Shown here piece after piece: positions 13,209-28,786 of a stretch of 58,312 nt of DNA. Source of the stretch: a virus; IMG/VR virus record IMGVR_UViG_3300017706_001678, positions 1-58,312 of that record; one strand, 5' to 3'. The notes below the pieces were generated by a model, which saw only the letters and a program-made list of their open reading frames with translations, was not told the origin of the DNA and ran no database searches. Within the stretch, counting starts at the first letter, position 1, and each line of letters opens with the position of its first letter. Made by a program: the position numbers and the translations under genes.

Positions 13209-13607
13209 ATGGAAGAAAATGATGTATTTGATGGACTTGGGGTTGAGATTGAATTAAAGTCACCTGAAGACTTCCTTAAAATTAGAGAGACGCTTACTCG
13301 AATAGGGGTCTCGTCTAGAAAAGAAAAGAAGTTATATCAATCTTGTCATATATTACACAAGAGAGGTAAATATGCTATTTTACACTTCAAAGAGTTTTTT
13401 ATTCTGGATGGATTAGAAAGCGATATATCAGAAAGTGATATAGGAAGAAGAAATAAAATATGTAAATTACTTGAAGAGTGGGGATTAGTTGTTATACTAG
13501 ATGACGATATAGAGCCAATGGCTAGTATGGCTCAAATTAAAATAATTCCTCATAAACAAAAGGAGGAATGGGAATTAGTTCCTAAATATCATATAGGAAG
13601 AAGGTAA
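13209..13607 (+). CDS. regA: RegA translational repressor
   Basis: The protein has 132 aa (T4 122), with an N-terminal extension of about 10 residues. The core is close to T4 RegA: SPEDFLKIRETLTRIGVSS, then LYQSCHILHKRGKY, LHFKEFF and the C-terminal LVPKYHIGRR. RegA binds ribosome-binding regions of early mRNAs and blocks translation, including its own. It follows gp62 as in T4, but in T4 the next gene is gp43; here about 23.7 kb of sugar and fibre genes intervene. Confidence 0.95.
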   Translation: MEENDVFDGLGVEIELKSPEDFLKIRETLTRIGVSSRKEKKLYQSCHILHKRGKYAILHFKEFFILDGLESDISESDIGRRNKICKLLEEWGLVVILDDDIEPMASMAQIKIIPHKQKEEWELVPKYHIGRR

Positions 13608-13613
13608 TTTATC

Positions 13614-14330
13614 ATGAAACTTATTGTGAAAATGGCGACTCGAAGTCGTCCCGAAAAATTTAAAACTGTACTCCAGCAATATATCGATTTTCTATCTGGA
13701 GAAAACGAAGTTCGTTTTGTTATATCATGTGATCTCGATGACGAGACAATGAACACCGATGAGATGCGGGAATGGTTCAAAGAAACACAGAAGTCGGTGG
13801 ATCTTGTATATCGTTACGGTCATTCAAAAACTAAAGTAGAAGCATGTAATGCAGATCTGGAGGACGAAGAGGGCGACGTATTGCTTGTCGTGTCTGACGA
13901 TATGATTCCTGCTGCAATGAATTATGATTCAATTATTGCACAAGGATTCACTGAAGTTTTTCCTAATTACGATGGTGCAATTAAATTCAACGACGGGCTT
14001 CGTAATGACGCTTTGATGACACTACCATGTCTTGGTTGGAAGTTATACAAGGCAATTGGACATTGTTACCACCCGGATTACACATCTCTTTATTGTGATG
14101 ATGAACAAACTAGACTTTGTGGTATGTTGGGTAAACTTGCAGTATGTGAGATGATCATTGCAAGACATGAGTGGATTCCCGGTGATCATGAAAATGCAGA
14201 CGATCTACACAAAAGAAATGAATCTTACTATGGTGTAGATGGTGAAGTTTTCAAGCGAAGAGCCGAAAACAATTTTGATGTTGATGAAGTCAGAGAACGT
14301 TTGGGACTACCAGTTCCAGCTAAGTCTTGA
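13614..14330 (+). CDS. GT-A type glycosyltransferase-like protein
   Basis: The protein has 238 aa. The N-terminal KMATRSRPEKF, then FVISCDLDDETM, and LLVVSDDMIPA with a DD metal/nucleotide-sugar motif at 95-96 fit a GT-A glycosyltransferase fold. The donor and acceptor are unknown. It is the first gene after regA, 6 nt downstream, and opens the sugar cassette, so it may be read from the regA promoter. There is no membrane segment. Confidence 0.75.
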   Translation: MKLIVKMATRSRPEKFKTVLQQYIDFLSGENEVRFVISCDLDDETMNTDEMREWFKETQKSVDLVYRYGHSKTKVEACNADLEDEEGDVLLVVSDDMIPAAMNYDSIIAQGFTEVFPNYDGAIKFNDGLRNDALMTLPCLGWKLYKAIGHCYHPDYTSLYCDDEQTRLCGMLGKLAVCEMIIARHEWIPGDHENADDLHKRNESYYGVDGEVFKRRAENNFDVDEVRERLGLPVPAKS

Positions 14331-14352
14331 TTTACTATATTATTGGTTAGTG

Positions 14353-15042
14353 ATGAAAATTTTAATCATACAGCCGGGTAGACTCGGTGATATTCTTATA
14401 TGTTTGCCGATTGCTAAGTTCTATAAAGATCTTGGTCATGAGATTTACTGGCCTGTTCTTTCTGAATACTCAGATACATTTAACAATATAGATTACGTTG
14501 AACCAATTGAAATTTTTTCTGGTATAGGTAATTGTGTTTCTGAGTGCTATAAAATGACTGGTGATTATGATAAGGTAATAGATTTAAGTTTTGGATTTCC
14601 GGGAAGTCAAGTAAATAGTTATCATATGAATACTGAATATGCTTCTAATTTTGTAGAAGCAAAATATAAATTATCTTCTGTTCCATATGAGAACAGATGG
14701 AATTTATCATTTACTAGAAACTTAGAGAAAGAAAATTCATTATTTAAATTAAAGGTAAGTGAAACACCATATACCCTAGTACATGATACTGGTTCTTCGG
14801 GTAGGTTGATAACTTTTAATGATCCTCACATTGTAGTTCAGCCTATTTCTGGTTATAATATATTTGATTGGTATAAAGTAGCAAATGAATCAAGTGAAAT
14901 TTACTGCATAGATAGTTCCTTTTGTCATTTCATAGAAACAGTAAAAGAATTTAAAGACAAGAAGAAATACTTTGTGGATGTTAGAAACAATATACCGTGG
15001 ACTAAAACTATATGGAAGAATAATTGGAATATTATAAAATGA
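14353..15042 (+). CDS. Family 9-like glycosyltransferase (heptosyltransferase-type)
   Basis: The protein has 229 aa from the ATG at 14353, chosen because it gives the typical opening MKILIIQPGRLGDILICLPI of LPS heptosyltransferases (ADP-heptose-LPS, GT9, GT-B fold). The family normally has about 320-350 residues, so the second Rossmann domain is reduced. The C-terminal part still shows an IYCIDSSFCHFIETV segment, resembling the D-S-x-x-x-H-x-A donor-site element. Likely role: transfer of a sugar to a lipid A-core-like or virion glycan (inference). Confidence 0.75.
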   Translation: MKILIIQPGRLGDILICLPIAKFYKDLGHEIYWPVLSEYSDTFNNIDYVEPIEIFSGIGNCVSECYKMTGDYDKVIDLSFGFPGSQVNSYHMNTEYASNFVEAKYKLSSVPYENRWNLSFTRNLEKENSLFKLKVSETPYTLVHDTGSSGRLITFNDPHIVVQPISGYNIFDWYKVANESSEIYCIDSSFCHFIETVKEFKDKKKYFVDVRNNIPWTKTIWKNNWNIIK

Positions 15043-15539
15043 CAATTGAAACAATAGAATTTAAAAATAAACTATATCCAAAATTTCAGAGTGAGGGTAA
15101 TGCATCTAAATTTGCAATACCTTTTGCTCAACATGTATGTCGAGGAATCGGGGTAGATATAGGGTGTGCTAAAAAGGAATGGGCATTTCCCGGATCTAAT
15201 CTAGTTGATCCCGCTATTAATGAATATAATGCTTCTAATTTTCCGTATGAAAATTTAGATTATATTTTTTCTTCTCATTGCTTAGAGCATATTCCATCGT
15301 GGGTTGACACAATGGAATATTGGTTTAGTAAATTGAAAGGTGGTGGAGTTTTATTTTTATACTTACCCGACTATAGTCAGGAATATTGGAGACCGTGGAA
15401 TAATAAAAAACATTTAAATATATTCACTTCTGATATAATTTATGATTATATGAAAGACAATGGTTATTGTAATATATTTAAATCTGGTGTTGATTTAAAT
15501 AATAGTTTTATGGTTTTTGGTGAAAAGGAAAATAAATGA
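15039..15539 (+). CDS. SAM-dependent methyltransferase (class I)
   Basis: The protein has 166 aa from the ATG at 15039, which overlaps the upstream TGA. Motif I GVDIGCAKKEW (about 33-43) and LDYIFSSHCLEHIPSW (D-x-h-x-(4)-C/V-L-E-H) are the signature of Methyltransf_11-like enzymes; GGGVLFLYLPDY follows. In a sugar cassette it probably methylates a sugar or a precursor. It is coupled by 4-bp overlaps on both sides. Confidence 0.82.
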   Translation: MTIETIEFKNKLYPKFQSEGNASKFAIPFAQHVCRGIGVDIGCAKKEWAFPGSNLVDPAINEYNASNFPYENLDYIFSSHCLEHIPSWVDTMEYWFSKLKGGGVLFLYLPDYSQEYWRPWNNKKHLNIFTSDIIYDYMKDNGYCNIFKSGVDLNNSFMVFGEKENK

Positions 15540-15985
15540 GTTTTTCTGATTTAAAAAGTAGAGTTGTTTGGACCAATGGGTGTTTTGATATTTTGCATCG
15601 TGGTCATATTGAAATGTTTAAAGGATGCTTTGAACTTGCTGGTCCCGAAGGTGTGGTTGTTGTTGGTGTAGATTCTGATGAAAGAGTAAAATCTTTGAAG
15701 GGAAATGACAGACCCTTTAATACTATTGGAGATAGAGTAGAAATATTAAGGGCATTGAAACTGATTGATGTTGTTGATGTGTTTTCTACTGATGAAGAAC
15801 TTAAGGGATTGATTAGTGAAGTACATAAACCAGATATTATGGTAGTAGGAGAAGAATATAAACACCAGACAGTCATTGGATCTGAATTTGTGGATGAGGT
15901 TAGTTTCTTTCCTAGACTTGGTAAATATTCAACAACTGATATTTTAGAATATCAAGGAGTAATAAATGAAAATTCTAAAAGGTAA
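15536..15985 (+). CDS. Cytidylyl/adenylyltransferase (HldE C-domain / GCT-like)
   Basis: The protein has 149 aa. It shows WTNGCFDILHRGHIEMF with the nucleotidyltransferase HxGH motif (HRGH at 21-24), GVDSDERVKSLKG, and DRVEILRALK, with the final KYSTTDILE replacing the family's R-S-(S/T)-T-x-I. These features are shared by ADP-heptose synthase (RfaE/HldE domain II) and glycerol-3-phosphate cytidylyltransferase. It activates a phosphorylated sugar or polyol with ATP or CTP. Together with the GT9-like gene, an ADP-heptose-type donor is plausible (inference). Confidence 0.85.
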   Translation: MSFSDLKSRVVWTNGCFDILHRGHIEMFKGCFELAGPEGVVVVGVDSDERVKSLKGNDRPFNTIGDRVEILRALKLIDVVDVFSTDEELKGLISEVHKPDIMVVGEEYKHQTVIGSEFVDEVSFFPRLGKYSTTDILEYQGVINENSKR

Positions 15986-16772
15986 TACTGATGCTAATGG
16001 TACATGCTACGGTCATTGTGGAGATACGTTCAGAGAACTAGTTGATATATGGGAAGAACTTGGTCTATGTGAAGTGCAAGATAGTCCAGACTGTTTTTGT
16101 TGGGTAGAAGAGTGTGGTGATGTATTACTATACGATTTTCCCAGATTAGATGATCGACATATTCCCAAATTCCGTCATGGTATTTTTGGTAATACTGTCC
16201 CAATGCATCCAAATTGTCATCCTTGGATCTTTTGGGCTAGAAGTCCTCGTCGCCTAATGGAAGCAAGAAAGACTCCGTTGTTGGGTTATGTGGATCGGGA
16301 CATAGAATCTATCTTCTTGGGTAAGATTGAAAATGGTGTTCAGAATCAGAATAGAAAAAGCAAAGACTGGGAACGAGCAGGTATAGAACTTTTTCATTGT
16401 CCTGTTGACAAGCCGGGACCAAACCACTACCCATTTACAAAAGAAGAGTACCTAGAAAAACTACGACACTCGAAGTTTGGACTATGCCTTGCTGGGTATG
16501 GTCCCAAGTGCAATCGGGAGATCGAACTTCTTGGTATGGGTGTCGTCCCACTCTTTGCTACTGAAGTTGATAATACATACCATGAACCAATGAAAGAAGG
16601 AGTTCATTTCCTTCGTGTGGATTATCCCAGTCAAGTCAAACCACTAATCGATTCAGTCAGTGAGAGTCAGTGGCAAGACATGCACGATGCGGGACAGGAC
16701 TGGTATAATAGGAACGCATCACCAGAGGGTGCTTTTAATGTGACTAAAACTATTGTGGAAAACTTAGGATGA
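15966..16772 (+). CDS. Exostosin-like glycosyltransferase (GT47-type)
   Basis: The protein has 268 aa. The segment SKFGLCLAGYGPKCNREIEL (about 169-188), followed by LGMGVVPLF, matches the exostosin (GT47) donor-site pattern F-x-L-C-P-x-G-x-x-x-x-S-x-R-x-x-E-x-x-x-x-G-x-x-P-V-x. The protein is Trp- and Cys-rich. It overlaps the previous gene by 20 nt in another frame. Exostosin-type enzymes add sugars to surface polysaccharides; the donor is unknown. Confidence 0.75.
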   Translation: MKILKGNTDANGTCYGHCGDTFRELVDIWEELGLCEVQDSPDCFCWVEECGDVLLYDFPRLDDRHIPKFRHGIFGNTVPMHPNCHPWIFWARSPRRLMEARKTPLLGYVDRDIESIFLGKIENGVQNQNRKSKDWERAGIELFHCPVDKPGPNHYPFTKEEYLEKLRHSKFGLCLAGYGPKCNREIELLGMGVVPLFATEVDNTYHEPMKEGVHFLRVDYPSQVKPLIDSVSESQWQDMHDAGQDWYNRNASPEGAFNVTKTIVENLG

Positions 16773-16774
16773 AA

Positions 16775-16802
16775 TTGAAGATCTAAATGAAGAAAGTATA
16801 CT
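16775..16802 (+). promoter_or_regulatory. Sigma70-type promoter inside the sugar cassette
   Basis: TTGAAG (16775-16780), 16-bp spacer, TATACT (16797-16802), in the 51-bp gap before the gene at 16824. The same -35 hexamer is used before gp43. A TTAAATA element (16813-16819) follows but is too close to the ATG to be a clear late promoter. Confidence 0.45.
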
Positions 16803-16823
16803 ATACGTGGAGTTAAATAGGTA

Positions 16824-17486
16824 ATGAAAATTTGTAGTATTATAACAGGCGTAATTAGACCTAATGTGGATCGTGTTTTTGAAAATATCAAAACCACTCT
16901 GTCAACCCTATCTGATTATAATTGTACACATTATGCCCTCACATATGAAACTGAAGAATATAAAAAACTCAAAACTCTCATAGACAACAGTGACTTAAAC
17001 ATAGAACTGATTTCTATCGATCCCATACTGGAAACTATAGGAAACTATAATGGTAATAATTATAGGATGTTTCGTTGTATTGAGATCCTGTGTAAACATG
17101 TGGATATAACAGAGGGTTTAGATTCGTTTGATTGTATTATTAGGCATCGAATTGACTGTGAGTTAAATAGTATAGAAATACCAAGTATTATGGAACATAA
17201 CACTTGGTATGCACCGGATTTACCTTGGGGTATATTTGACAATATTGGTATTACTTCCCCTGATATCTTTAGAAAAATTTTCACAACGCAGGAAAAGACG
17301 TTCCTAGAAAAAAATCCACATGATACTTTAGATGCTAGTATTGGAGACGTTGGTGTTATTAAAAAACCCTTCAACTTCAAAAAAACTTTATATCAAAGTA
17401 ATGATGAATTTGTAATGGGAGTACGTCAGTGGTCAAGAAAAAATAGAGTTTTTGAATACGATGGGAAATGGGTGAGCATTCATTGA
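16824..17486 (+). CDS. Putative LPS/glycan biosynthesis protein (WavE-like)
   Basis: The protein has 220 aa. MKICSIITGVIRPNVDRVFENI at the start, CIIRHRIDCEL in the middle (about 104-114) and a C-terminal FVMGVRQWSRK stretch resemble the WavE-type LPS biosynthesis proteins, in which an IR-x-R-x-D element and a final F-G-x motif are conserved. Similarity is judged by eye only, and a generic GT-A-like role is the safe reading. The 3' end overlaps the kinase-aldolase gene by 19 nt. Confidence 0.6.
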   Translation: MKICSIITGVIRPNVDRVFENIKTTLSTLSDYNCTHYALTYETEEYKKLKTLIDNSDLNIELISIDPILETIGNYNGNNYRMFRCIEILCKHVDITEGLDSFDCIIRHRIDCELNSIEIPSIMEHNTWYAPDLPWGIFDNIGITSPDIFRKIFTTQEKTFLEKNPHDTLDASIGDVGVIKKPFNFKKTLYQSNDEFVMGVRQWSRKNRVFEYDGKWVSIH

Positions 17487-18871
17487 ATACGATAGTAACA
17501 CTCTCTGGTAGCTCTGGTGTTGGAAAAACAACTTTGTCCGAATTGATTTCTTTAGTGATTGGTCCAGACAAAGTTGTAAATCTGTGTGGTGATGATTTAC
17601 ATTTGTGGGAAAGAAACGATGAAAACTGGAAGAATACAACACATTTAAATCCCGAGTCTAATAATATCGAAGGTGGATATCAAGATTTGATTTCTCTGTC
17701 AAACAACAACCCAATAAAACGGTGTAGGTATAACCATGATACTGGAAAGTTTGATCCTCCAGAGTTAATTGAACCAAAATCATATATTGTTTATGAGGGA
17801 CTTCATGCCTTGTTTGGTGATGTGAATGAAATATCGGATATAAAAATTTTTGTTGAAACTGACAAGGGACTCAAACGTCAGTGGAAAATGAACCGCGATA
17901 CACAAAAAAGAGGATATACCGTTGAACAGGTTAAAGATACCTTGGATAGAAGAGAAAAAGATGAACTATTATACATTCAACCTCAAAAAGAAAATGCTGA
18001 TGCCGTAGTTAGGTTCGAAGAGAAAAAAGACAGAACAGTTCATCTAGAATATACTGCACAAACGGATAAGTCATTGAAACTACTTGAACGGGTTAAGAGA
18101 TTGTACGATATGCACAGAGAATTTCTTTCGTTGTGTAAGAAGACTTCTTTTGAATATGACCTCGTTCAACATGGTGGTGGTAATGTTTCTTATAAGTTCG
18201 AGGATAAAATTATCATAACATCATCCGGCAGAGACATGAGTGAGGTTCTTATGCTTGATGGTTTTAGTGCATGTGATTCTGATGGTTATTCTATTGACGA
18301 GAGTCGGGAACGACCATCTATGGAAGTAAAATTACATACCAAGATTAAGTGGCCTGTTGTCTTCCATACCCATCCGATTTATTTGAATACTATACTTTGT
18401 TCCGAACAATCCGAGGAAATTATTTCAAAAATTCTTAAAGAGTATGATTACGACTATGTTCCATATGTTACTCCGGGTGAATCCTTGTCAAATATTTTTG
18501 ACATTTTTTTGATGTTGGGTAAAATTAGTCAAGAAAATAAAATTATATTACTAGAAAATCATGGACTCATTTGTAGTGGTTCATCTTTTATTGAAGTATT
18601 TGATAACTCTCTTCGTGTGAATCAGTTGTGCAAAGAGTGGTTAATTAAAAATTCAAAGGCATTCAAAACTTTTTCGAAAGTAGAATTCGACAAACCAGTT
18701 GGTTTTCTGTTTCCTGATGCGGTCATCCTCAAAGACAAGATGCAAAATTTAAACCAGTACATGACATACATACAAGGTGATGTTGGACTAACTCCAAGAT
18801 TTTTATGTGACAATGAAGTTGAGAAACTATTAAGTATGGAAGAAGAAAAATACAGGATGGGTGTACTATGA
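17468..18871 (+). CDS. Fusion of P-loop kinase (uridine kinase/PRK-like) and class II aldolase (FucA/AraD-like)
   Basis: The protein has 467 aa. Residues 1-200 are a nucleoside/sugar kinase: Walker A GSSGVGKT (14-21), GDDLHLWER, YNHDTGKFDPP and IVYEGLHALF, the order seen in uridine kinase/phosphoribulokinase. Residues about 207-440 are a class II aldolase: HGGGNVSYKF and IIITSSGRDMSEV match G-N-(I/V)-S and (T/S)-P-S-G. Zinc ligands H300 and H302 occur in FHTHP, and H365 in ENHGLI. Both active sites look intact, so one chain could phosphorylate a substrate and cleave or epimerise a phospho-sugar. TTG 17483 with a GGTGAG site is an alternative start and does not affect the domains. The next gene overlaps by 4 bp. 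Confidence 0.82.
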   Translation: MGEHSLNTIVTLSGSSGVGKTTLSELISLVIGPDKVVNLCGDDLHLWERNDENWKNTTHLNPESNNIEGGYQDLISLSNNNPIKRCRYNHDTGKFDPPELIEPKSYIVYEGLHALFGDVNEISDIKIFVETDKGLKRQWKMNRDTQKRGYTVEQVKDTLDRREKDELLYIQPQKENADAVVRFEEKKDRTVHLEYTAQTDKSLKLLERVKRLYDMHREFLSLCKKTSFEYDLVQHGGGNVSYKFEDKIIITSSGRDMSEVLMLDGFSACDSDGYSIDESRERPSMEVKLHTKIKWPVVFHTHPIYLNTILCSEQSEEIISKILKEYDYDYVPYVTPGESLSNIFDIFLMLGKISQENKIILLENHGLICSGSSFIEVFDNSLRVNQLCKEWLIKNSKAFKTFSKVEFDKPVGFLFPDAVILKDKMQNLNQYMTYIQGDVGLTPRFLCDNEVEKLLSMEEEKYRMGVL

Positions 18872-19695
18872 AAATTATCATACCAATGGCTGGATCTGGA
18901 CAGAGATTTATCGACAAGGGTTATTCTGATCCCAAACCTTTGATTAAGGTAAATGGGAAGATGATTATAGAATACATTCTTGAAATGTTTTCCCCGACTG
19001 ATGATTATGTTTTTGTGTGTAACGACGATCACCTCGAAAATACAAACATGCGAGAAGTGTTAATTGGTCTTGTTCCTGATGCAAAAATCGTTTCTATGCC
19101 TCCTCATAAATTGGGGCCTGTTTATAGTGTGAAACAGGTATATGATCATATAGAGGATGATGAAGAGGTTATAGTTTCATATTGTGATAACCCATACCTG
19201 TGGGACAGAAACGATTTTATACGACACATTAAGAATAATGAACTGGATGGATGTGTGATTTCTCACAGTGGGTTCCACCCTCACAGTTTAAATCACACCA
19301 AGATGGCTTTTATGAAAACCAAAGATGGATTGGTACGAGAAATAAAAGAGAAAGAGTGTTACACCGATGATCCCATGAACGAACACGCATCAACGGGAAC
19401 TTATTATTTTTCTAAAGGGAAGGATATAAAGAAGTATTTTGACCTTGCAATAGAAGAGAATGTTAGTTATAATGGTGAATATTACGTTACGCTCGTTTAT
19501 AATCTTTTCGTTAGAGATGGTTTGCGGGTTGGATATTATGATACCCCATTTGCAACTGTAATGGGAACACCGGAAGAAGTAGAAAATTTTGAGTCATGGG
19601 TAAGTATTTTGACCAAGGGACAAGTGAACTCAGAGGAAGACCTAGTAAAGTGTTATCGTTACTGGAAAGAATACCATGCAAGTGATCTTTGTTGA
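18868..19695 (+). CDS. Sugar-phosphate nucleotidyltransferase
   Basis: The protein has 275 aa. The N-terminal IIPMAGSGQRF motif (about 4-14), followed by DPKPLIKVNGKMII, is the NTP-binding loop and PKPL(I/L) element of RmlA/GlmU-type NTP transferases. VSYCDNPYLWDR gives the metal-binding aspartate, and NGEYYVTLVYN the sugar-binding region. It forms NDP-activated precursors for capsule or LPS. The next gene starts inside it with a 20-nt overlap. It is a distant paralogue of the gene at 20393. Confidence 0.88.
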   Translation: MKIIIPMAGSGQRFIDKGYSDPKPLIKVNGKMIIEYILEMFSPTDDYVFVCNDDHLENTNMREVLIGLVPDAKIVSMPPHKLGPVYSVKQVYDHIEDDEEVIVSYCDNPYLWDRNDFIRHIKNNELDGCVISHSGFHPHSLNHTKMAFMKTKDGLVREIKEKECYTDDPMNEHASTGTYYFSKGKDIKKYFDLAIEENVSYNGEYYVTLVYNLFVRDGLRVGYYDTPFATVMGTPEEVENFESWVSILTKGQVNSEEDLVKCYRYWKEYHASDLC

Positions 19696-19975
19696 CATTG
19701 ATGAAACCATCTGTGATACGCCAGATAATCCGAGAGACTACCACAGATCCGTTCCACGGAAAAAAATAATAGAGAAGATCAATCATCTATTCGACGAGGG
19801 TAACCGAATAGTTTATTGGACAGCTAGGGGAAGTAGAAGTGGAATTGATTGGTTCGATCATACAGAGAAACAGTTAAAAAGTTGGGGCGTTAAGTATCAT
19901 CAACTGAGATGTGATAAACCGTATTACGATATTTTTTATGATGACAAAACAAAAAATAAAATTGATATCCCATAG
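19676..19975 (+). CDS. Minimal HAD-family phosphatase
   Basis: The protein has 99 aa, a capless HAD. Motif I is FVDIDETIC (DxDxT, nucleophile D7). YWTARGS serves as motif II (Thr), a Lys in the HTEKQLKSWG helix is likely motif III, and YYDIFYDDKT motif IV. Such very short HADs are frequent in capsule loci, where they dephosphorylate small phospho-polyol or phospho-amino-alcohol intermediates (established for some Campylobacter enzymes; substrate here unknown). It overlaps both neighbours. Confidence 0.8.
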   Translation: MQVIFVDIDETICDTPDNPRDYHRSVPRKKIIEKINHLFDEGNRIVYWTARGSRSGIDWFDHTEKQLKSWGVKYHQLRCDKPYYDIFYDDKTKNKIDIP

Positions 19976-20396
19976 AGGAAATTTGAACGGAGTTAATCCG
20001 GATAGAGAAAATTCTCCATCATATATTCAGGAGGCAATAACTGCTGGATATGATGTTGAGATTGATGTTCATTGGTGGAACAGTGGTATTTGGTTGGGAC
20101 ACGATAAACCGGATTGGGAGATTCCCCTGTCATTTTTAGAAGACATAAAGGACCGTGTGTGGATTCATTGTAAGAATTTTCAAGCGTTTAGTCATCTACT
20201 CAACACAGACTTTAGGATATTCTTTCATGAAAATGAAAGATATGCTATGATAAATAACGGGTTAATATGGGCCCACGATCTAGATATGATAAATGAAAAG
20301 TGCATAATACCACTCCTATCGAAAGAACAAGTACTGGGTTGGGAAGAAACAAAAGTCTATGGAGTTTGTTCTGATTATGTGGAGTTGTTCAAATGA
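19938..20396 (+). CDS. GDPD-like (glycerophosphodiester phosphodiesterase fold) protein
   Basis: The protein has 152 aa from the ATG at 19938; ATG 19941 is equally possible and neither has a Shine-Dalgarno site. ISHRGNLNG followed by ENSPSYIQEAITAGYDVEIDV matches the GDPD core H-R-G-x-x-x-x-x-E-N-(S/T)-x-x-A-(F/I) and the E-x-D metal pair. The usual GDPD has about 250 aa, so the barrel is shortened. Role inference: processing of a phosphodiester-linked polyol in the cassette. It starts 38 nt inside the HAD gene, suggesting translational coupling. Confidence 0.72.
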   Translation: MMTKQKIKLISHRGNLNGVNPDRENSPSYIQEAITAGYDVEIDVHWWNSGIWLGHDKPDWEIPLSFLEDIKDRVWIHCKNFQAFSHLLNTDFRIFFHENERYAMINNGLIWAHDLDMINEKCIIPLLSKEQVLGWEETKVYGVCSDYVELFK

Positions 20397-21130
20397 TAAA
20401 TCTAATAACTTTAGCAGGTGAAGGTTCTAGGTTCTCTGATGCTGGTGTAGAAACACCAAAACCTTTAATTGAAGTTAACGGCAAACCCATGATTATAGAA
20501 GCCGTTTCTTGTCTTCCAGAAGCAGACTGCCATGTCTTTGTCTGTAGAACAGAACACATAGAAGAACATTCTATAGACGAAATTATAAAGGACTATTATC
20601 CAGAATCAGAGTTTGTTGTTTTAGACAAAACAACTATGGGACAAGCTTGTACGGCTGAAATTGGCATTTTACAATCGTCAATACATGAAGACGATTCAAT
20701 CACGATAAGTTGTTGCGACTATGGTTTAGAGTGGTCTAATGAAAAGTACGAGAGTGTGAAGAAAGGTTCTGATGTTGTTGTCTGGTCAACCATAAACAAC
20801 GCTGCGTTTTCCAACAATCCAAGTTCTTATAGTTGGTTGGAAACATCGGGCGATAGGTTAACAAAAACACATGTAAAACAAAATTTTTTCGATGATCCCT
20901 TTAACAATCGTGCCATAGTGGGTACTTTTTTCTTCAAACGGGCCGGTGATTTTTTAGATGGGGTGTCTAGGATATACAGGGATGTTATCAAGAGTAATGG
21001 TGAATATTACATTGATAATATTTTTAATAGTATAGGTCATCTAGATGTGAGTATATTTGATGTTGATGAGTATCATTGCTGGGGAACTCCAGAGGATTTG
21101 TTGAATTATGAAAATAGATTATTGGGATAA
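20393..21130 (+). CDS. Second sugar-phosphate nucleotidyltransferase
   Basis: The protein has 245 aa. It opens with LITLAGEGSRFSDAG and TPKPLIEVNGKPMII, the NTP transferase loop and PKPLI element, then SCCDYGLEW with the metal-binding Asp and NGEYYIDNIFN near the C-terminus. Its layout mirrors the 18868 gene (same CDN/CDY and NGEYY elements), so they are diverged paralogues that probably activate different substrates. It overlaps the previous gene by 4 bp and the next by 23. Confidence 0.87.
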   Translation: MINLITLAGEGSRFSDAGVETPKPLIEVNGKPMIIEAVSCLPEADCHVFVCRTEHIEEHSIDEIIKDYYPESEFVVLDKTTMGQACTAEIGILQSSIHEDDSITISCCDYGLEWSNEKYESVKKGSDVVVWSTINNAAFSNNPSSYSWLETSGDRLTKTHVKQNFFDDPFNNRAIVGTFFFKRAGDFLDGVSRIYRDVIKSNGEYYIDNIFNSIGHLDVSIFDVDEYHCWGTPEDLLNYENRLLG

Positions 21131-22205
21131 AAGCCAATCTGGATCCATAAGAACTGTTTCCGAAAAAAGAAACATAAAGATTGGTGAGTTTAGAGATTGT
21201 ACAGTGGAGGGTTTTTCTTTAAATTACCCCCAACCGTTATTGCACACCAACGATGAACTTTTACTTCCCACTATAGAAAAATTTATGTCTTTGGGTAGGG
21301 GAACCGTCTATGAAGACACAATGGAATATGAAACATCCGAAAAAAGACTTTGGGATGTTAGATCGATTACAACACCGGTTTTTTACTTTGTGTACAATTG
21401 TGCTAATTATTTTCACTGGTTGTATGATACGGTTCCTTACTTATACTCTTACTTCGATCTTAAAAAACAAATTCCAAATTTGAAATTGTTAATTAGTCCC
21501 CCCGAAGGAAAAGATGATCTATATCCATTTGTATATGAAACTCTAGAACTATTAGGTATAGCAAAAAATGATTTAGTTTTTTTGAGAGATGATGTGTCTT
21601 ACTTTAGAGTTTTTGTTGGCTCCTCTTTAACTCACAATAGAATGTCTCTGGATCCACCGCATCCTGCTTTATACGAAATACTAGATTCGATGGAGGGAAC
21701 TAGATCCGATGTGAAGAAAGTCTATGTTTCAAGAAGAACATGGACAAAGAAAAGGAATGAAAATATCGGAACTGATTATACACAACAGAGGAAATGTGTT
21801 AACGAAGATGAAGTAGCGGAATTTTTTATTCATAACGGATTCGAAGAAGTTTTCACTGAAGACTTGTGTATGGAAGATAAAATTGGATTGTTTCGTAATG
21901 CAGATTTTGTAGCAGGACCGATTGGTGGTGGGATGTCAAATGCTCTATTTTGTAGACCGGATTGTATGGTGTTGTCGATAAACAGCCCTGAGTTCTTTGA
22001 TGTTAATAGAAGGTTGGAGTTTGCCATGAACAGGACCGACTTGATTCATTTCAATGAAACAGAATTTGTAGACAGAAAAGAAGAAGTAGAGACACACAAA
22101 AATGCTCTTTCGATATTTGGGGGTATAAATTCCAGCTGGAAAGTAGATATAAATAAACTGAAAGAACTGATTGAAGTTCAAATGAAAGATTATAGGAGTA
22201 GATAA
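21108..22205 (+). CDS. GT61-family glycosyltransferase (DUF563)
   Basis: The protein has 365 aa. Family landmarks in order are NYFHWLYDTVPYLYS (about 95-109), KVYVSRRTW, CMEDKIGLFRNADFVAGPIG and GGMSNALFCRP. These are the capsular-polysaccharide/GT61 (DUF563) signature, with GPHGAG replaced by GPIGGG. It transfers a sugar to a surface glycan; donor unknown. The start lies 23 nt inside the previous gene, and its TAA overlaps the next ATG. Confidence 0.82.
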   Translation: MKIDYWDKSQSGSIRTVSEKRNIKIGEFRDCTVEGFSLNYPQPLLHTNDELLLPTIEKFMSLGRGTVYEDTMEYETSEKRLWDVRSITTPVFYFVYNCANYFHWLYDTVPYLYSYFDLKKQIPNLKLLISPPEGKDDLYPFVYETLELLGIAKNDLVFLRDDVSYFRVFVGSSLTHNRMSLDPPHPALYEILDSMEGTRSDVKKVYVSRRTWTKKRNENIGTDYTQQRKCVNEDEVAEFFIHNGFEEVFTEDLCMEDKIGLFRNADFVAGPIGGGMSNALFCRPDCMVLSINSPEFFDVNRRLEFAMNRTDLIHFNETEFVDRKEEVETHKNALSIFGGINSSWKVDINKLKELIEVQMKDYRSR

Positions 22206-23494
22206 TGAATGACCGGCCTAAAGTTACCTTGTGTATGATCGTGAAAGATGAAACTCATATTATAGAACAATGTCTTCGTTCTATTGCAAAATACGTTGAT
22301 CGATATGATATTACCGATACTGGTTCCACTGATGGAACACAGGATCTTATCAAGAAGACTATGGAAGAACTAAAAGTTCCCGGTGAGGTCCATCAATCAG
22401 ACTGGAAAGGATTTGGTGATCATAACGGTAAAATGGGTTCTAGGTCAGAATCTTTAATAAATGCAAAAAAATCTGATGCCGAATATGCATGGGTTATTGA
22501 TGCAGACGATTATGTAGAAGGTAATTTTCAGTATCCAGAAACGATGGACGCAGATTGTTATTCTCTGTGTATCGGTCGTGGTGATTTTACTTGGTGGAGA
22601 AACCAAATATTTAAACTTTCTGTTGATTGGAAATACAAAGGAATTCTTCATGAATATGCAACAACTGATAGCAAACCCAGAGAAGAAATTAATGCTGGAA
22701 AACTAGGTGGTGAGTATAAAGTAATTGCAAGAACTGAAGGTAATCGTAACGTTGGTATTACACCAGTAGACAAGTATAAAAGAGATGCAGAAGTTCTCGA
22801 ACAGGCGATCTTAGACGAACCAACAAACGACAGATATCACTTTTACTTAGCACAATCATATTTTGATTCTCAGCAATTTGAAAAGTCTCTCGTTGCATAT
22901 GAAAAACGAGTAGAACTGGGTGGTTGGCCAGAAGAAGTTTATTATTCTAAACTTCGATGTGGTATTCTAAAGGGTTTGATGAATAAACCACTGGCAGAAA
23001 CAGCTGCTGCATTTGTCGATGCTTTTAATTATAGACCCATTAGAGCAGAACCCCTGTGGTTCTTATCTAGAATGTATAGAATGAATGAAATGCCTGCTGC
23101 TGCTTACATGTATGCTAGAATGGGATTGGATATACAATATCCACAACAAGATATTTTGTTTATTCAGGATGATGTTTATAAATGGGGCATCTTAGACGAA
23201 GTTGCTGCAACTGCATTTTATGCAAACCAACCACAAGTTGGATATCAAGCGAGTAAGATTCTACTTGAAAACAATCTTATTCCTGTTTTACATAAACAAA
23301 GAGTTCTTCAGAACTTTAGATCATATGAGCAGGTTATGAAACAAATAGAAGAACAGCAAAAGAACTCTAATTTAAATGATGCTAGTGTGGCACCTCATGT
23401 TGGTAAACAAAAAAAAGAACCAAATAGAAATAAACAGTCAACTAAAGTAAAAGAAAAGACTGGTTATAAAAAGAGACAAAAACAAAAAGCATAA
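22205..23494 (+). CDS. GT2 glycosyltransferase with TPR-like domain and basic tail
   Basis: The protein has 429 aa. Residues 1-170 are a GT-A transferase: LCMIVKDETHIIEQCLRSI, TDTGSTDGTQ and the VIDADDYVEG motif (DxD). Residues about 195-350 are helical repeats of TPR type (DRYHFYLAQSYFDSQQFEKS). The last about 50 residues are disordered and Lys/Gln-rich (KKEPNRNKQSTKVKEK), perhaps an anchor. The protein resembles the GT2-TPR enzymes of phages and giant viruses. Codons and spacing are like those of its neighbours. The stop codon TAA is embedded in a late promoter motif for the fibre island. Confidence 0.85.
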   Translation: MNDRPKVTLCMIVKDETHIIEQCLRSIAKYVDRYDITDTGSTDGTQDLIKKTMEELKVPGEVHQSDWKGFGDHNGKMGSRSESLINAKKSDAEYAWVIDADDYVEGNFQYPETMDADCYSLCIGRGDFTWWRNQIFKLSVDWKYKGILHEYATTDSKPREEINAGKLGGEYKVIARTEGNRNVGITPVDKYKRDAEVLEQAILDEPTNDRYHFYLAQSYFDSQQFEKSLVAYEKRVELGGWPEEVYYSKLRCGILKGLMNKPLAETAAAFVDAFNYRPIRAEPLWFLSRMYRMNEMPAAAYMYARMGLDIQYPQQDILFIQDDVYKWGILDEVAATAFYANQPQVGYQASKILLENNLIPVLHKQRVLQNFRSYEQVMKQIEEQQKNSNLNDASVAPHVGKQKKEPNRNKQSTKVKEKTGYKKRQKQKA

Positions 23495-23528: not shown

Positions 23529-24110
23529 ATGACTAATGAAATTAATTTTCCTGCAATAAATGGAGTTGATGGTTTATCATGTGATACCTATCCTTTTGGG
23601 TGGACATCTGGTTGTAGTCATTCAGATGGAGTAAATAAAGGATTTACACAGGAATGGTTTTTTGATGGTAGACTTGGTGCTTGGGTTTCTGATACAAGAG
23701 TTCAAAAAGAATATCCTAGCGTTAACATATTAGGTCAGGGTTTGGCATCTGTTGGACTTACATATGATGCACATCTCAGTATTTCTGATATTCATTTTAT
23801 TGGATTTGCTGATGGGGCACCGTCGTCTTTTTCTACTACGATTAGATTTTTAGATCCACCGACATTAAACTCTTTTGCGGAAGTAACATTAATTGTTGAT
23901 AATCCGAATGCCCCAACAGAATTAAATGTTGTCGGTCTCAATAGTAGTGGAGTTACCGGAACTGTACATATGGATAGAACAATAACCAGTGATACTGCGG
24001 ATGGTCTTACTGGTGGGATCCATATGTGGAAGATATGGAGCATTGATGGTGGTACTAACTATTATATGTACCGAGCAAACGGATTTGGACGATTTTGGGA
24101 TGATTCATAA
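23529..24110 (+). CDS. Fibre-associated structural protein with INFPAxNG module
   Basis: The protein has 193 aa. The first about 55 residues (EINFPAINGVDGLSCDTYPF, TSGC, then GFTQEWFFDGRLGAWVS) are nearly the same as the start of the protein at 52227. They belong to the common phage virion pattern of a short strand, a Gly/Asn turn and a final W-x-W-(D/N)-G-x-x-W. The remainder is beta-rich without recognised family. It is the first gene behind a late promoter and overlaps the collagen-like fibre by 1 bp, so a tail fibre role is likely. Confidence 0.7.
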   Translation: MTNEINFPAINGVDGLSCDTYPFGWTSGCSHSDGVNKGFTQEWFFDGRLGAWVSDTRVQKEYPSVNILGQGLASVGLTYDAHLSISDIHFIGFADGAPSSFSTTIRFLDPPTLNSFAEVTLIVDNPNAPTELNVVGLNSSGVTGTVHMDRTITSDTADGLTGGIHMWKIWSIDGGTNYYMYRANGFGRFWDDS

Positions 24111-25543
24111 TGGCTAAATGGATTGTAAAAAAGACCATAAGCGATTCAATAAAAAAGAATCAGATTATAGAGGAGACTAATCTGATTCATATTGAAGCTA
24201 TTAGTCTGTCTGAATATGAGGGGGGATTTAACTTTTTTTCCAAAGGAAAGAATTTTAAAACTGAATCTGGTTCTGTAGTTAAATTATTAGGAAAACGATC
24301 TGATTATAATGAATATTTACAGGAATATGATGGAAGTAAATTAAAAACGTTTAGATGGAAAGGTTCTCCCTCCGTAAATTTATTTGCGGGTAAAGCATAT
24401 AAAGAAAGTCCATTAACTAATTTTGATAGATCCTGTGTTTTAGACGCAGGTACAAACAAAATATTTCTAGAGGACGGATCCGAAGTTGTTGCAATACGTG
24501 GATCTAGAAAAAAATTCAATGAGTGTATGGATATTTTGATTGAAGATACACCATCCAATAACGAATTATTGGATATCTTAGTTGAAGATGACAAAATAAC
24601 TAAACGTGAGTACGTAACTGAAATAATAAAAGAAGAAAAACTAGTTGGTCCCGATGGACCACGAGGATTTCCGGGTGAGCAGGGTCCTGTTGGGGATGAT
24701 GGTCCTGCTGGACCAAGAGGAGATCGTGGTGATGCTGGTCCACGGGGAGAACCCGGTAAAGATGGAACAGATGGTAAAGATGGAACAGATGGTAAAGATG
24801 GAATTGAAGGTGTAGTTGGACCAAAAGGTGAAACTGGTGATCGTGGAGAAAAGGGTGATCAGGGAGAGCAGGGTATTCCCGGTGAGGTTGCACAGAAGGG
24901 AGAACGTGGTGCTATAGGTCCAGCAGGACCTAAAGGAGATAGGGGTCCTCTTGGTCATTCTATTCCCGGCAAACAAGGCGAACAGGGACCTGCCGGACCA
25001 ATGGGTAATACTGGAAGTGCTGGACCTACCGGACCAATGGGTAATAAAGGACCTAGAGGTGCGTCAATAATAGGACCAGAAGGTCCACAAGGACCAAAGG
25101 GAGATGATGGAGAATCTCCGATAGTAAAAGCAAAATATCCTCTTGTTTATAATAAAGATCGTAAGTTATTTACAATTGATAAGAAGTTTTTTGAAAAACT
25201 TCTGTCTGGTGGTAGCGTAAATGAAAAAATGATGAATAATTTTGTCACTGCAGCAGCGGTTGCTGGTGGTGGTGGATTGTCATCAATTAAAGATGGTAAC
25301 AATTCAGATATAGCTTTTGTTAGAAATCCAGAAGATTTAATTTTTGAGGGGTCTGGAGTTTCACTAAATAAGGTGGGTGGTAAGAGTGTAAGAGTTTCAA
25401 TTTCGGGTGGTGGATCTGCTGGGAGCAGTGTGTATGTTTCCGATGATGCGCCTTCTGGAACTTTTGTTACTGGAGATAGGTGGATAGAGTCTGATACCAC
25501 TAAGCTTTTTACTCGTTATGAAGATTTATGGGTAGAATTCTAA
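24110..25543 (+). CDS. Collagen-like tail fibre protein
   Basis: The protein has 477 aa. N-terminal about 178 residues: mixed domain with an acidic helical end. Residues about 179-336: G-X-Y triplets with several short breaks (for example [19 protein letters not shown]), including three repeats of GKDGTD-type triplets, expected to form a trimeric collagen-like shaft. C-terminal about 130 residues: a globular head ending in a [20 protein letters not shown] module shared with other fibres here. Collagen-like segments are common in phage fibres and can rearrange by slippage. Confidence 0.88.
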
Positions 25544-25552
25544 GGAGAGTAA

Positions 25553-26440
25553 ATGGCAATATCATTTCCATTATCACCATCAACCAATGACGAATACACT
25601 TTCAGTGGTATCACATGGAAGTGGAATGGTTATGCATGGAATAAAATAAGCGGTACTGGAACTGGTGGTTCTGGAGCAACTTGGACACGGCAAGATGATG
25701 CTTTTCCAGAAACTTTGGGTGGTATAGAGGCAGGAACTACACTTGCAAACGGAACGGATGCTATACAGGTTTTAGAAAGTCTATTGTATCCATACCAGAC
25801 GGTTAGTTTTAGTTCTTTTTCTACTGGTCTTTCTACTTCATACGAAGTAGGTCAGACTGCAGGTAATTCTACTAATAACGCTACATGGAATACATCAGGT
25901 CCTAATGATAATTGGATTGCCGGATCTCTTTCTATATCAGCAAATCAAAGTGTAGGTACTTTAGTTTCAGGTTTGGATTATGATGACTCTCCCGAAAGTA
26001 TAACACACAACGCATATAATTTTACATCAACAACAACATTAACTTTCACTATAACAGGACAACAAGATCAAGGTAGTAACGCAACAAGAAATCAAAATCT
26101 ATCTTGGAAGTATAAATACTTTAGTGGAAAAACTGGAGCAGGATTTGATGGTTCTGGTCTTACTGGACAAGGATTTGCAGACACATTTAGAACTACTCCC
26201 AATAATTATACAGTTACTTTTGCTGCTGCAAGTCCAGCAAATAAAGGATATTTTGTTATACCAGAAGAAGAAATTTCTGGCTCGTTGACTTTTACTGATA
26301 CTGGGACCAATTTGAACTTTCCTTTCACTGATGGGGGAACTTTTGGTCATGTGAATACATTTGGATTAAATGTCGTATATCATCTATATGAATCTACCAA
26401 CAATTTCGCAGGGGAAGTATCAGTAAAGGTTAGCACATAA
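25553..26440 (+). CDS. Tail fibre/virion protein with FPxSPxxND N-terminal module
   Basis: The protein has 295 aa. The start SFPLSPSTNDEYTFSGITWK, then WNGYAWNKI, is the same N-terminal module as the 1077-aa fibre at 29519 (FPNSPSVNDTTTIGSKTFKW). A middle segment, TTLANGTDAIQVLESLLYPYQ, is typical of marine phage fibre proteins. The rest is Ser/Thr-rich beta structure. GGAG stands just before the ATG. Function: fibre or fibre-tip component (inference from module and operon). Confidence 0.72.
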   Translation: MAISFPLSPSTNDEYTFSGITWKWNGYAWNKISGTGTGGSGATWTRQDDAFPETLGGIEAGTTLANGTDAIQVLESLLYPYQTVSFSSFSTGLSTSYEVGQTAGNSTNNATWNTSGPNDNWIAGSLSISANQSVGTLVSGLDYDDSPESITHNAYNFTSTTTLTFTITGQQDQGSNATRNQNLSWKYKYFSGKTGAGFDGSGLTGQGFADTFRTTPNNYTVTFAAASPANKGYFVIPEEEISGSLTFTDTGTNLNFPFTDGGTFGHVNTFGLNVVYHLYESTNNFAGEVSVKVST

Positions 26441-27105
26441 TGGCAATTATTACGGGTGGAGTTAGAATAGGAGGGTTTATATCGCCTACTGATACGGCGG
26501 ATACTTTCCCTGTAACTAAACCAGAATTTGGTTTGGGTGGACTTCGTACTGTAAACAATACAACTGCAAGAAATAACATACCGTCTGATCGCAGGGAAGA
26601 GGGTATGTTGGTTTATGTTCTGGGTGATCAGACATATTACAAACTAGAAGGTGGTATATCCAATTCGGATTGGTCTATACTTTCTTTGAGTGCAACTGCT
26701 ATAACCTTTGATGCATCACCACCGTCATCTCCAAACCTTGGTGACTTTTGGTTTGAAGAAGACACTGGATCTTTCTTTGTTTATGTGAGTGACGGAGATT
26801 CGCTCCAATGGGTAGAAATAAATGGTCAGCCGGGTCCTAGAGGTGATACTGGTCCTTCTGGTGGACCCATAGGACCAACTGGTGATACAGGTGATACGGG
26901 ACCACAGGGACCACAAGGTCCTGCTGGATCTGGAGGCGAGGTAGACTTATCTGGTCCTACCTTTACAATTGAAGGAATTAATGCTCTCAAATTTGTTCAG
27001 GGTAGTAACGTTATTATTGGTGTTACAAACGAAGGATCTGGGTCTACAGGATATATAAATATATCAGTGGATTTAGAATTCATACTTGGCGGGACTTTTA
27101 CTTAA
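26440..27105 (+). CDS. Short collagen-like fibre protein
   Basis: The protein has 221 aa. A globular first half includes NLGDFWFEEDTGSFFVYV (GDxWF module, about 104-121) ending in LQWVEI. A short collagen-like stretch of about 30 residues follows (GQPGPRGDTGPSGGPIGPTG and on), then a beta-rich tail. It overlaps the previous gene by one base. The placement of the GDxWF module directly before G-X-Y triplets is repeated in other genes here, pointing to module shuffling. Confidence 0.8.
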   Translation: MAIITGGVRIGGFISPTDTADTFPVTKPEFGLGGLRTVNNTTARNNIPSDRREEGMLVYVLGDQTYYKLEGGISNSDWSILSLSATAITFDASPPSSPNLGDFWFEEDTGSFFVYVSDGDSLQWVEINGQPGPRGDTGPSGGPIGPTGDTGDTGPQGPQGPAGSGGEVDLSGPTFTIEGINALKFVQGSNVIIGVTNEGSGSTGYINISVDLEFILGGTFT

Positions 27106-27116
27106 GGAATTAACTG

Positions 27117-28562
27117 ATGGCAAGAGAATCAACTATTCAAATTTTGTATGGTGGTAGTACTGTAGGGGCACCCGCAGATCTGAGTGATGGTGAATTAGCC
27201 TACGCTCATGGATCAAAAAATCTATTCGTTGGTGCTGGTGGAAACAATACTGCAGTAAGAATTGGCGCAGAAGTATTAGACGAAGACGACTTTAACTCTA
27301 ACAGTGCAACTTCTCTTGCTTCTCAGCAGTCAATTAAGACCTACGTCGATAACTCCATTGGTGCTTCTGCTGGTGTTACGAGTATCGAAGCTCTGACTGG
27401 TTCTGTTAATGTTGCGGCTGGTTCTGGTATTGGTGTTAGTACTACTGGTAGTGGTAGTGGTACTTTAACAATAAGTGGTCTTACAGCGTCTACTAGCGTA
27501 GTTGGTGTTGCAAAATATAACTCCGATGACTTTACTGTGAGTGCTGCCGGTAATGTTTCTCTGGCAAACGATGCTATTAATCTTATTACCGATGATACGA
27601 CTACAAAAATTGTTGGTTTGGGATCTAATACGTTCATTTCTGGTTCTAATGGTATAATAACTTCTTCCTCTGGTAATACTCTAACTATTGATTTGAGTAA
27701 CAGTGGAATTCCAAATGCAAAACTAACAAATTCTAGCATGAATTTTTCAGGTGGAACCGGTGGTGTTGAAATAGATGGATCCACTAGCACACAAGTTGTT
27801 CAACTTGGTAGCACTGTAACAATAGGTGTAACTGCAGCAACCGCAACCCAAGTTGGCGTTGCAGCTTTTGCTGCTGCTGACTTTGCTCTTGCTACTGATG
27901 CGAGTGGGTATGGTACTGTTAATATTAAATCTGGCGGTGTTGGAAATAACCAATTAGCCAACTCTAGTGTATCATTTGGTGGTGTGTCTCTCAATCTTGG
28001 AGAAACAGACGCGACCCCTGCGTTTAATCTTTCTGATGCAACAGGATTGAATCCGAACACTGGTATTTCTGGTGATATTCCTTCTTCTAAGCTAGACAAT
28101 TCTGGATTTACGGTTACTACTTCAACCGACTCTGGTAGTTTCAGTATCGGTCTCGGACAATCTCTGGGATTTACAGGAACCGCTAACGAAATTACAGTGG
28201 AAGAAACTGCCGGAAAAGTTCAAATTGGAATGCCTGATGATGTTACAATATCAGGAGATCTTACTGTAAATGGAACTGTTACTACAATAAACACCACTAC
28301 GGTATTGGTTGAAGATTCTTTAATGGGTCTTGCAAATAACAATTCCGCAGATAGTATTGACATTGGATTTGTTGGTCAGTATAATGATGGTTCTATTAAG
28401 TATACAGGTCTTGCAAGAGATGCAAATGACTCGGGTAAGTTTAAGTTGTTTGAAGACATAAGTGGCGCTGCATATAATGGTACAGACGCTACACTTCCTA
28501 GCATGTCTGCTGGTAACATCGCAACTTTGGTTTGTAAGGTAAATGCTGGTACATATTCTTGA
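27117..28562 (+). CDS. Large beta-rich tail fibre protein
   Basis: The protein has 481 aa. The N-terminal RESTIQILYGGS module recurs in the protein at 28787. The body is Gly/Ser/Thr/Val-rich with repeated short strands, predicted as a long beta-structured shaft. The C-terminal GDLTVNGTVTTINTTTV, then DSLMGLANNN, SIDIGFVGQYNDG and YTGLARDANDSGKFKLF, is a segment I know as common in marine T4-like phage fibres. No catalytic motif. Likely an adhesin shaft. Confidence 0.82.
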   Translation: MARESTIQILYGGSTVGAPADLSDGELAYAHGSKNLFVGAGGNNTAVRIGAEVLDEDDFNSNSATSLASQQSIKTYVDNSIGASAGVTSIEALTGSVNVAAGSGIGVSTTGSGSGTLTISGLTASTSVVGVAKYNSDDFTVSAAGNVSLANDAINLITDDTTTKIVGLGSNTFISGSNGIITSSSGNTLTIDLSNSGIPNAKLTNSSMNFSGGTGGVEIDGSTSTQVVQLGSTVTIGVTAATATQVGVAAFAAADFALATDASGYGTVNIKSGGVGNNQLANSSVSFGGVSLNLGETDATPAFNLSDATGLNPNTGISGDIPSSKLDNSGFTVTTSTDSGSFSIGLGQSLGFTGTANEITVEETAGKVQIGMPDDVTISGDLTVNGTVTTINTTTVLVEDSLMGLANNNSADSIDIGFVGQYNDGSIKYTGLARDANDSGKFKLFEDISGAAYNGTDATLPSMSAGNIATLVCKVNAGTYS

Positions 28563-28584
28563 TTTTTAGTGAAAGGTTTATATT

Positions 28585-28782: not shown

Positions 28783-28786
28783 GTAA

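Follow-up and report, generated by a model that had tools for sequence, protein, structure and literature searches.

Phage glycan cassettes are already known from P-SSM2 and from pelagimyophages. In the excerpts available of the accounts of cyanophage and jumbo-phage LPS clusters, P-SSM2 is credited with 24 LPS genes, and a change of the host surface that blocks superinfection is proposed (PMC2984593; PMC7824862). Those clusters of glycosyltransferase, HIGH-type nucleotidyltransferase and epimerase genes resemble the locus described here and likewise belong to T4-like marine phages; however, the same excerpts name PfkB kinases, epimerases and cupins, with no PRK-like kinase, aldolase, GDPD module or regA-GT2T swap site (PMC2984593; PMC7824862). 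The host recognition cluster of pelagimyophages, T4-like marine phages too, is likewise a variable island that holds tail-fibre and glycosyltransferase genes, but it lies between VrlC and gp14, whereas the present cassette lies between regA and gp43 (PMC7029224). Cyanophages S-SM2 and Bellamy have a homologous core (NTP-NTP, GT61, aldolase, HAD and GDPD, at about 30-56% identity), although without the kinase and at some 30 kb from gp44; there the HAD is annotated as 'phosphoheptose isomerase' and the GDPD, in most records, as hypothetical. No description of this core module or gene combination was found in the literature searched.

The window analysed here is a viral stretch of 58,312 nt (IMG/VR record IMGVR_UViG_3300017706_001678, positions 1 to 58,312), which gave no DNA-level match to phage records. 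It belongs to a T4-like marine phage and carries a glycan cassette at a swap site. Our findings suggest that the core of this cassette constitutes one biosynthetic pathway whose product is likeliest destined for the host surface (probability about 0.58).

Layout of the cassette and the swap site

Twelve tightly packed, co-oriented genes (13614-22205) are flanked by regA and by a resident TPR-glycosyltransferase gene (22205-23494), downstream of which lie fibre genes, a dUTPase gene and then gp43:

13209..13607, + strand: regA, left edge of the swap site (Pfam Translat_reg, 1.1e-40)
13614..14330, + strand: GT1, putative glycosyltransferase, variable part (phrog_14945 glycosyltransferase, 2e-10)
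14353..15042, + strand: GT2, putative glycosyltransferase, variable part (GT9-like N-terminal motif by eye)
15024..15539, + strand: SAM methyltransferase, variable part (PF13489, 1.1e-11)
15536..15985, + strand: HxGH nucleotidyltransferase, RfaE/HldE-domain-like, variable part (PF01467, 5.8e-15)
15966..16772, + strand: GT3, weakly exostosin/GT47-like, variable part (PF03016, 0.037)
16824..17486, + strand: GT4, next to the kinase (no Pfam or PHROG family match)
17468..18871, + strand: core fusion of PRK-like kinase (aa 1-200; Pfam 3.5e-36) and class II aldolase (aa 210-467; PF00596, 1.9e-20)
18868..19695, + strand: core NTP transferase A (PF12804, 3.3e-12; phrog_3980, 5e-59)
19676..19975, + strand: core capless HAD phosphatase, 99 aa, EcbF/BcbF-like (phrog_1238, 1.3e-24)
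19941..20396, + strand: core miniature phosphodiesterase of GDPD fold (mini-GDPD), 151 aa; the ORF, open from 19911, has 161 aa (phrog_34507, 1.8e-35)
20393..21130, + strand: core NTP transferase B (phrog_3980, 3.2e-35)
21108..22205, + strand: core GT61 glycosyltransferase (PF04577, 3.6e-16; 51-52% to S-SM2 and Bellamy)
22205..23494, + strand: resident GT2 + TPR-like glycosyltransferase (GT2-TPR), right edge of the swap site (PF00535, 3.2e-5)
23529..29494, + strand: neighbouring collagen-like and other fibre-type genes (Collagen PF01391 in 24110-25543; 26440-27105 below cut-off)
37266..39809, + strand: gp43 DNA polymerase (phrog_262, 1072.9 bits)

Clustered, co-oriented glycosyltransferase and nucleotide-sugar genes, as in LPS-type surface-glycan cassettes of phages, are thus present. 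The first-pass annotation had counted thirteen genes in one orientation from regA up to the fibre genes, which is borne out; most of them overlap, by 1-35 bp. It had also placed the cassette between regA and gp43, correctly as to position, but the fibre and dUTPase genes share that interval, and its view of all thirteen genes as an insert holds for twelve. Among relatives, the gap between regA and GT2-TPR measures 19-23 bp in five and 6.5-7.7 kb in nine others, and the filled sites sampled by Pfam contain other sugar genes. This interval is a swap site at which different sugar-gene sets are exchanged among relatives, and its empty examples offer a natural comparison for cassette exchange. Since regA abuts GT2-TPR in the empty-site relatives, the thirteenth gene belongs to the resident frame, and its membership in the insert is ruled out. 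Neither Rfam RNAs nor tRNAs were found in the window, and 19-residue hydropathy pointed to no clear transmembrane segment among the 13 cassette proteins, the top value (1.63) falling at the very start of GT2, where it was read as a beta strand, and all others being at most 1.32.

The core enzymes and their spread

The earlier assignments of the SAM methyltransferase, HxGH nucleotidyltransferase, two NTP transferases, HAD and kinase-aldolase are backed by Pfam, PHROG and NCBIfam. In the AlphaFold model of the fusion (pLDDT 87), the kinase domain matches 9qko_A, a cyanobacteria-specific PRK, with Z 22.5 over 208 residues (rmsd 2.3), and its closest solved structures are PRKs, at 34-35% identity. 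It has in common with Calvin-cycle PRKs the fold, the P-loop and the conserved DDxH...R residues, the catalytic Asp, His and Arg being present by structure match and alignment, but it is a domain of ~190 aa, aldolase-fused, outside a carbon-fixation operon and altered in its substrate loop. Neither the Calvin-type loop (R..R......SALxP) nor a carbon-fixation gene context was found for the kinase, which has a THLNP/W signature instead. A WER...W..THLNP-type loop is shared by 16 phage and bacterial pathway kinases, whereas four Calvin-type PRKs have SALxP and form a separate clade (support 100/100). The kinase is a PRK paralogue with an altered substrate loop and, because of that change, its substrate cannot be read off from PRK. 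A weak match of the kinase to PADLOC LmuB (1.3e-5) covers the N-terminal nucleotide-binding part only. The aldolase domain (fold Z 18-20) retains the metal-binding HxH...H and the catalytic Glu, with PSxE, HTHP and NHG conserved. Two aldolase types serve the module and, since they are deeply split, they might catalyse different steps.

In bacteria and the majority of other phages, NTP transferases A and B form one fused protein of ~524 aa. The motifs DxDET, WTARG and K...DDK were read in the HAD sequence, which scores 7.8e-5 against TIGR01689, under the cut-off. The ORF labelled 'GDPD-like' at first pass gave no match to the curated GDPD Pfam model at E 0.1, yet the label proved apt: its AlphaFold model (pLDDT 93) matches GDPDs over the whole length (Z 11.2 to 1o1z, 142 residues, rmsd 3.3), a TIM-barrel fold with the HR(G), ExD and HD residues in place, and HR, EN, ExD and HD are invariant among relatives. 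A counter-nucleotide defence role for this mini-GDPD was rejected, as it keeps company with sugar genes and gave no match in PADLOC. One scan gave at least 588 stretches with viral relatives of it, and most of the annotated phage records examined label them hypothetical, which is one reason why the module matters.

The core set was found in ~45 viral loci, with differing gene orders and fusions. In a sample of 80 loci fetched by GDPD alone, co-occurrence was near-obligate: the aldolase was accompanied by the HAD in 37 of 37 loci (Fisher 2e-19, near-duplicate loci included) and the kinase by the aldolase in 29 of 30. For the core, such co-occurrence lies far outside chance; for the flanking genes it does not. 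The idea of a coherent set that makes, activates and attaches a substituent is supported, and genes scattered in relatives with no co-occurrence, named beforehand as the refuting outcome, are not what the core displays. As a single unit, the cassette holds for the core, but not for the flanking glycosyltransferase and methyltransferase genes, which are variable and not conserved with it, nor for the resident GT2-TPR.

Proposed pathway and competing explanations

Five alphaproteobacterial genomes carry a chromosomal, rearranged core beside GT2 and GT-C glycosyltransferases. In G1005, NTP-NTP, aldolase, HAD, GT-C-PRK, GDPD-like and GT2 genes stand in a row, plus GtrA, and the clusters of G1031, G526, G498 and G927 are similar. 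In having GT2 and GT-C genes, with GtrA flippase genes in two of the five loci, these counterparts resemble gtrABC O-antigen glucosylation, from which the window differs in lacking GtrA, GT-C and any clear membrane protein and in a donor chemistry that looks new (PMC3259042). A GtrA flippase, a membrane-bound GtrB and a GT-C transferase were looked for in the cassette and not found, with no GtrA or GT-C Pfam match. Some observations sit uneasily with our preferred explanation: the link between the bacterial GDPD-like protein and the phage mini-GDPD is weak (hhalign probability 83%, E 8.6e-6, in one pairwise comparison), the bacterial HADs belong to a different subfamily, the aldolases are split, and the bacterial clusters use GT-C/GtrA export, which the phage cassette is without.

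We hypothesize that a pentulose or related ketose (phosphate) receives a phosphate on its C1 side from the PRK-like kinase, and that this ketose-1-phosphate is the substrate of the class II aldolase in the fusion, whether for aldol cleavage, for condensation or for epimerisation. One phosphate would then be taken off by the HAD, NTP-A and NTP-B would produce either one or two nucleotide-activated donors, the mini-GDPD may split or transfer a phosphodiester of the donor or a precursor, and GT61 together with the variable glycosyltransferases would attach the product. Since the cassette encodes neither a flippase nor a polymerase nor any clear membrane protein, this product would have to enter host machinery or go to an acceptor in the cytoplasm. 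The acceptor is probably the LPS, capsule or O-antigen-type glycan of the host, altered during infection, plausibly against superinfection; the reading tilts to the host surface because the bacterial counterparts have gtr-like membrane machinery. We give even odds to an undescribed pathway, common to phages and a small number of bacteria, by which the PRK-derived kinase and class II aldolase convert a ketose phosphate into nucleotide-activated surface-glycan building blocks (one or two), with the mini-GDPD as an essential phosphodiester-processing step. The recurring gene set and its bacterial counterpart make this chemistry testable enzyme by enzyme, and it could reveal how marine phages rewrite host surfaces.

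It is conceivable, but unlikely, that GT61 and GT2-TPR instead glycosylate the neighbouring collagen-like fibre proteins with a donor made by the core. In the window the cassette has GT2-TPR and the collagen fibres as neighbours, an arrangement that fits fibre glycosylation and speaks against our preferred explanation: the fibre genes start 34 bp past GT2-TPR, 47 of the 80 GT2-TPR relatives have a collagen-like ORF at most 3.5 kb downstream, and the late-promoter motif TATAAATA occurs at 22148, just before the GT2-TPR start, although this motif is not clearly enriched in the window (9 seen against 5.8 expected from shuffles). Nevertheless, five empty-site phages have GT2-TPR with no collagen-like ORF within 8 kb or up to the locus end, and the fibre-less bacterial chromosomes use the same core. 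The expectation that relatives would show the cassette next to the same fibre genes is realized in part of the T4-like lineage only, since the core lies beside RecA-like recombinase/helicase genes in three loci (L003-L005) and at the distance from gp44 given above in S-SM2 and Bellamy.

We are similarly doubtful that the kinase makes ribulose-1,5-bisphosphate from Ru5P as a true PRK does, having been lost in cyanophages since photosynthetic hosts supply the product. The similarity to solved PRKs agrees with such a role, as does the presence of psbA/psbD in all four kinase-less records of at least 180 kb against 0 of 33 kinase-bearing records. Many of the latter are fragments, however, and because the kinase-less loci form one clade (99/99) the correlation amounts to a single event; moreover, the substrate loop of all the pathway kinases is unlike that of Calvin PRKs. 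Far less probable still is the absence of any dedicated pathway, with host-derived sugar genes loosely piling up at a hotspot. The flanking glycosyltransferase and methyltransferase genes do vary and the content of the regA-GT2-TPR site clearly swaps, but the core stays together in divergent phages and in bacteria, its order rearranged and its fusions differing, so this explanation is largely refuted for the core and holds for the flanking genes.

Variable flanking genes

Of the five or six glycosyltransferases counted at first pass, GT61 and GT2-TPR are well founded, while GT1 (13614) has a weaker basis in its PHROG match and GT3 (15966) in its homologues, its GT47-likeness coming through a weak homologue in L002 that matches PF03016 at 1e-21. 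GT2 (14353), without Pfam or PHROG match, has relatives at ~23% identity in L002 and S-SM2, and GT4 (16824) is also without family match. GT4 sits beside the kinase, much as a GT-like domain does in the kinase fusions of other phages; homology between the two is unsupported (hhalign probability 3%). The HxGH nucleotidyltransferase is 44% identical to a gene just upstream of the S-SM2 module. An ADP-heptose pathway (HldE) was rejected, as this protein reaches 105.8 bits against TIGR02199, far under the curated cut-off of 181.5, and no PfkB kinase was among the Pfam matches in the cassette. The initiation codon of the SAM methyltransferase is unsure, being TTG 15024 or a later ATG. The GT2 ORF was listed from 14239, but the start at 14353 (MKILIIQPGRLGDIL...), which L001 shares in its 95%-identical gene, is the more plausible one.

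A sugar gene cassette downstream of regA

In the 58,312-bp IMG/VR virus record, regA is followed by thirteen co-oriented genes, overlapping by 1-35 bp at most junctions, and these in turn by fibre-type genes, a dUTPase gene and gp43, as annotated with Pfam, PHROGs, NCBIfam and fold comparison:

13209-13607, regA, directly before the thirteen genes
13614-22205, + strand, the first twelve of the thirteen genes
22205-23494, GT2 glycosyltransferase with a TPR-like part (GT2-TPR), the last of the thirteen
36267-36836, dUTPase
37266-39809, gp43

The same gene order is found in a near relative (contig L001), with 87-100% identity across these genes. In the Pelagibacter phage Mosig just three genes lie between regA and gp43. 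As a separate observation, the first fibre-region gene (23529-24110) and a later gene of the window (52227-53693) have a 77-aa stretch in common at 58%, a match made between the later gene and the L001 orthologue of the first.

The first-pass annotation had treated all thirteen genes as one inserted set. Among 80 viral relatives of the GT2-TPR gene, 15 carried regA within the fetched stretch, and with a fetch limit of 8 kb the gap between both genes was 19-23 bp in five, 313 bp in one and 6.5-7.7 kb in nine. Gene content was examined at five of the filled sites, and proteins from four of these were compared with Pfam, revealing DXD-type and GT11 glycosyltransferases in L112, a DegT aminotransferase and a GT10-like protein (the latter sub-threshold) in L144, and a GDP-mannose-dehydratase-like epimerase in L176; the single protein tested from L183 had no Pfam match. 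These empty and filled sites, with other sugar genes in L112, L144 and L176, show that 13614-22205 is an exchangeable cassette. The insert therefore comprises twelve genes, while the thirteenth, almost contiguous with regA in the five relatives with the shortest gaps, is resident.

Conservation and predicted folds of the core module

The core of the cassette consists of a PRK-like kinase, a class II aldolase, two NTP transferases (NTP-A and NTP-B), a small HAD protein, a 151-aa GDPD-like protein (mini-GDPD) and a GT61 glycosyltransferase. The mini-GDPD, used as sole query against viral contigs, retrieved at least 588 relatives, 80 of which were taken for co-occurrence counts that are inflated by near-duplicate contigs: an NTP transferase was located near the mini-GDPD in 76 loci, the aldolase was found in 37, all with the small HAD, and the kinase in 30, of which 29 also had the aldolase. 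The check proposed in the first-pass annotation, whether the genes occur together in related phages, thus had a positive outcome for the core. Module sequence identities as low as 25-40% among loci argue that, despite the near-duplicate contigs, the linkage is old. The arrangement is flexible, since gene order varies among loci and NTP-A and NTP-B, separate genes in the window, are elsewhere a single 524-aa protein. The kinase is fused to the aldolase in the window and in L002, L028, L029, L035 and L041, and is joined instead to a GT-like domain in L003-L005 and others.

Structural models agree with these family assignments. The kinase-aldolase fusion was predicted by AlphaFold with a pLDDT of 87 and a pTM of 0.86; its kinase half aligned with the PRK 9qko (Z 22.5, 208 residues, 34% identity) and its residues 210-400 matched class II aldolases at Z 18-20. 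The mini-GDPD model (pLDDT 93) aligned over its full length with GDPDs (Z 11.2), and the site residues expected in a GDPD are invariant among its relatives. No description of this gene combination was found in the open-licence literature searched.

Two further observations were made by eye. In each of two different phages, genes resembling the ammonia-dependent synthetase NadE lie close to the module (L002, 12869-13681; L104, 6948-7694), where they could possibly provide an amidation step. In L026, a contig labelled Candidatus Lokiarchaeota, RecA-like and DnaB-like genes resemble those of the phage loci L003-L005 and adjoin a GDPD-NTP transferase pair, and this contig looks viral rather than archaeal.

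Bacterial counterparts and the destination of the products

A kinase of the module type, within a frame of ~710 aa, was detected in two of 289 alphaproteobacterial genomes, and order-level searches added three further genomes. In one of the bacterial genomes (G1005), consecutive genes on a single strand encode GtrA, a tandem NTP transferase, an aldolase, a HAD protein, a membrane GT87-like/PRK fusion, a GDPD-like protein and a GT2; the sets of G1031, G526, G498 and G927 resemble it, not all of them complete, and G1005 and G1031 alone had a confirmed GtrA. The sole link between the bacterial GDPD-like protein and the phage mini-GDPD is a profile match with a probability of 83%. A mini-GDPD was also found in 16 of 297 Pelagibacterales genomes; where its locus was inspected, its neighbour was mostly a HAD-NTP transferase fusion. 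This fusion was seen beside it in L021, L023 and L189-L194, with a plain NTP transferase instead in L192; by eye, L021 has the appearance of a polysaccharide locus and looks like a pared-down, cellular form of the pair.

As for the acceptor, which like the substrates and the order of steps we infer from the observed enzyme families and gene linkage, we favour the host's surface-glycan assembly, into which the cassette products would feed, since the phage cassette itself encodes neither export nor polymerase functions and the bacterial versions of the module lie beside gtr-like membrane machinery. For P-SSM2 and pelagimyophages, earlier work had proposed both LPS/glycan clusters and a role in superinfection (PMC2984593, PMC7824862, PMC7029224). 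Alternatively, the cassette may decorate the virion fibres, a reading that we retain in view of the cassette's immediate neighbours, the resident glycosyltransferase and the collagen-like fibres.

Kinase type and the cyanophage modules

One substrate-loop signature is common to 16 phage and bacterial kinases of the pathway, whereas a different loop is seen in four PRKs that come from other alphaproteobacterial genomes and lie among carbon-metabolism genes; these four form their own clade in the tree. The cyanophage modules constitute one clade and lack the kinase; psbA/psbD were present in all four kinase-less records of at least 180 kb, against none of the 33 records with the kinase. A host PRK may stand in for the missing enzyme, but this proposal calls for caution, since the absence of the kinase represents one evolutionary event and the substrate loops differ.

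The small HAD of the cyanophages S-SM2 (SSM2_207) and Bellamy (212), loci L008 and L009, has HAD motifs; 'phosphoheptose isomerase' is the label of the small HAD in some public records and in PHROGs (phrog_1238). A cyanophage-type module also occurs in L016 (NHBP01000002.1), labelled Planctomycetaceae TMED10; this contig falls inside the kinase-less cyanophage clade and probably comes from a phage, having been binned into a MAG.
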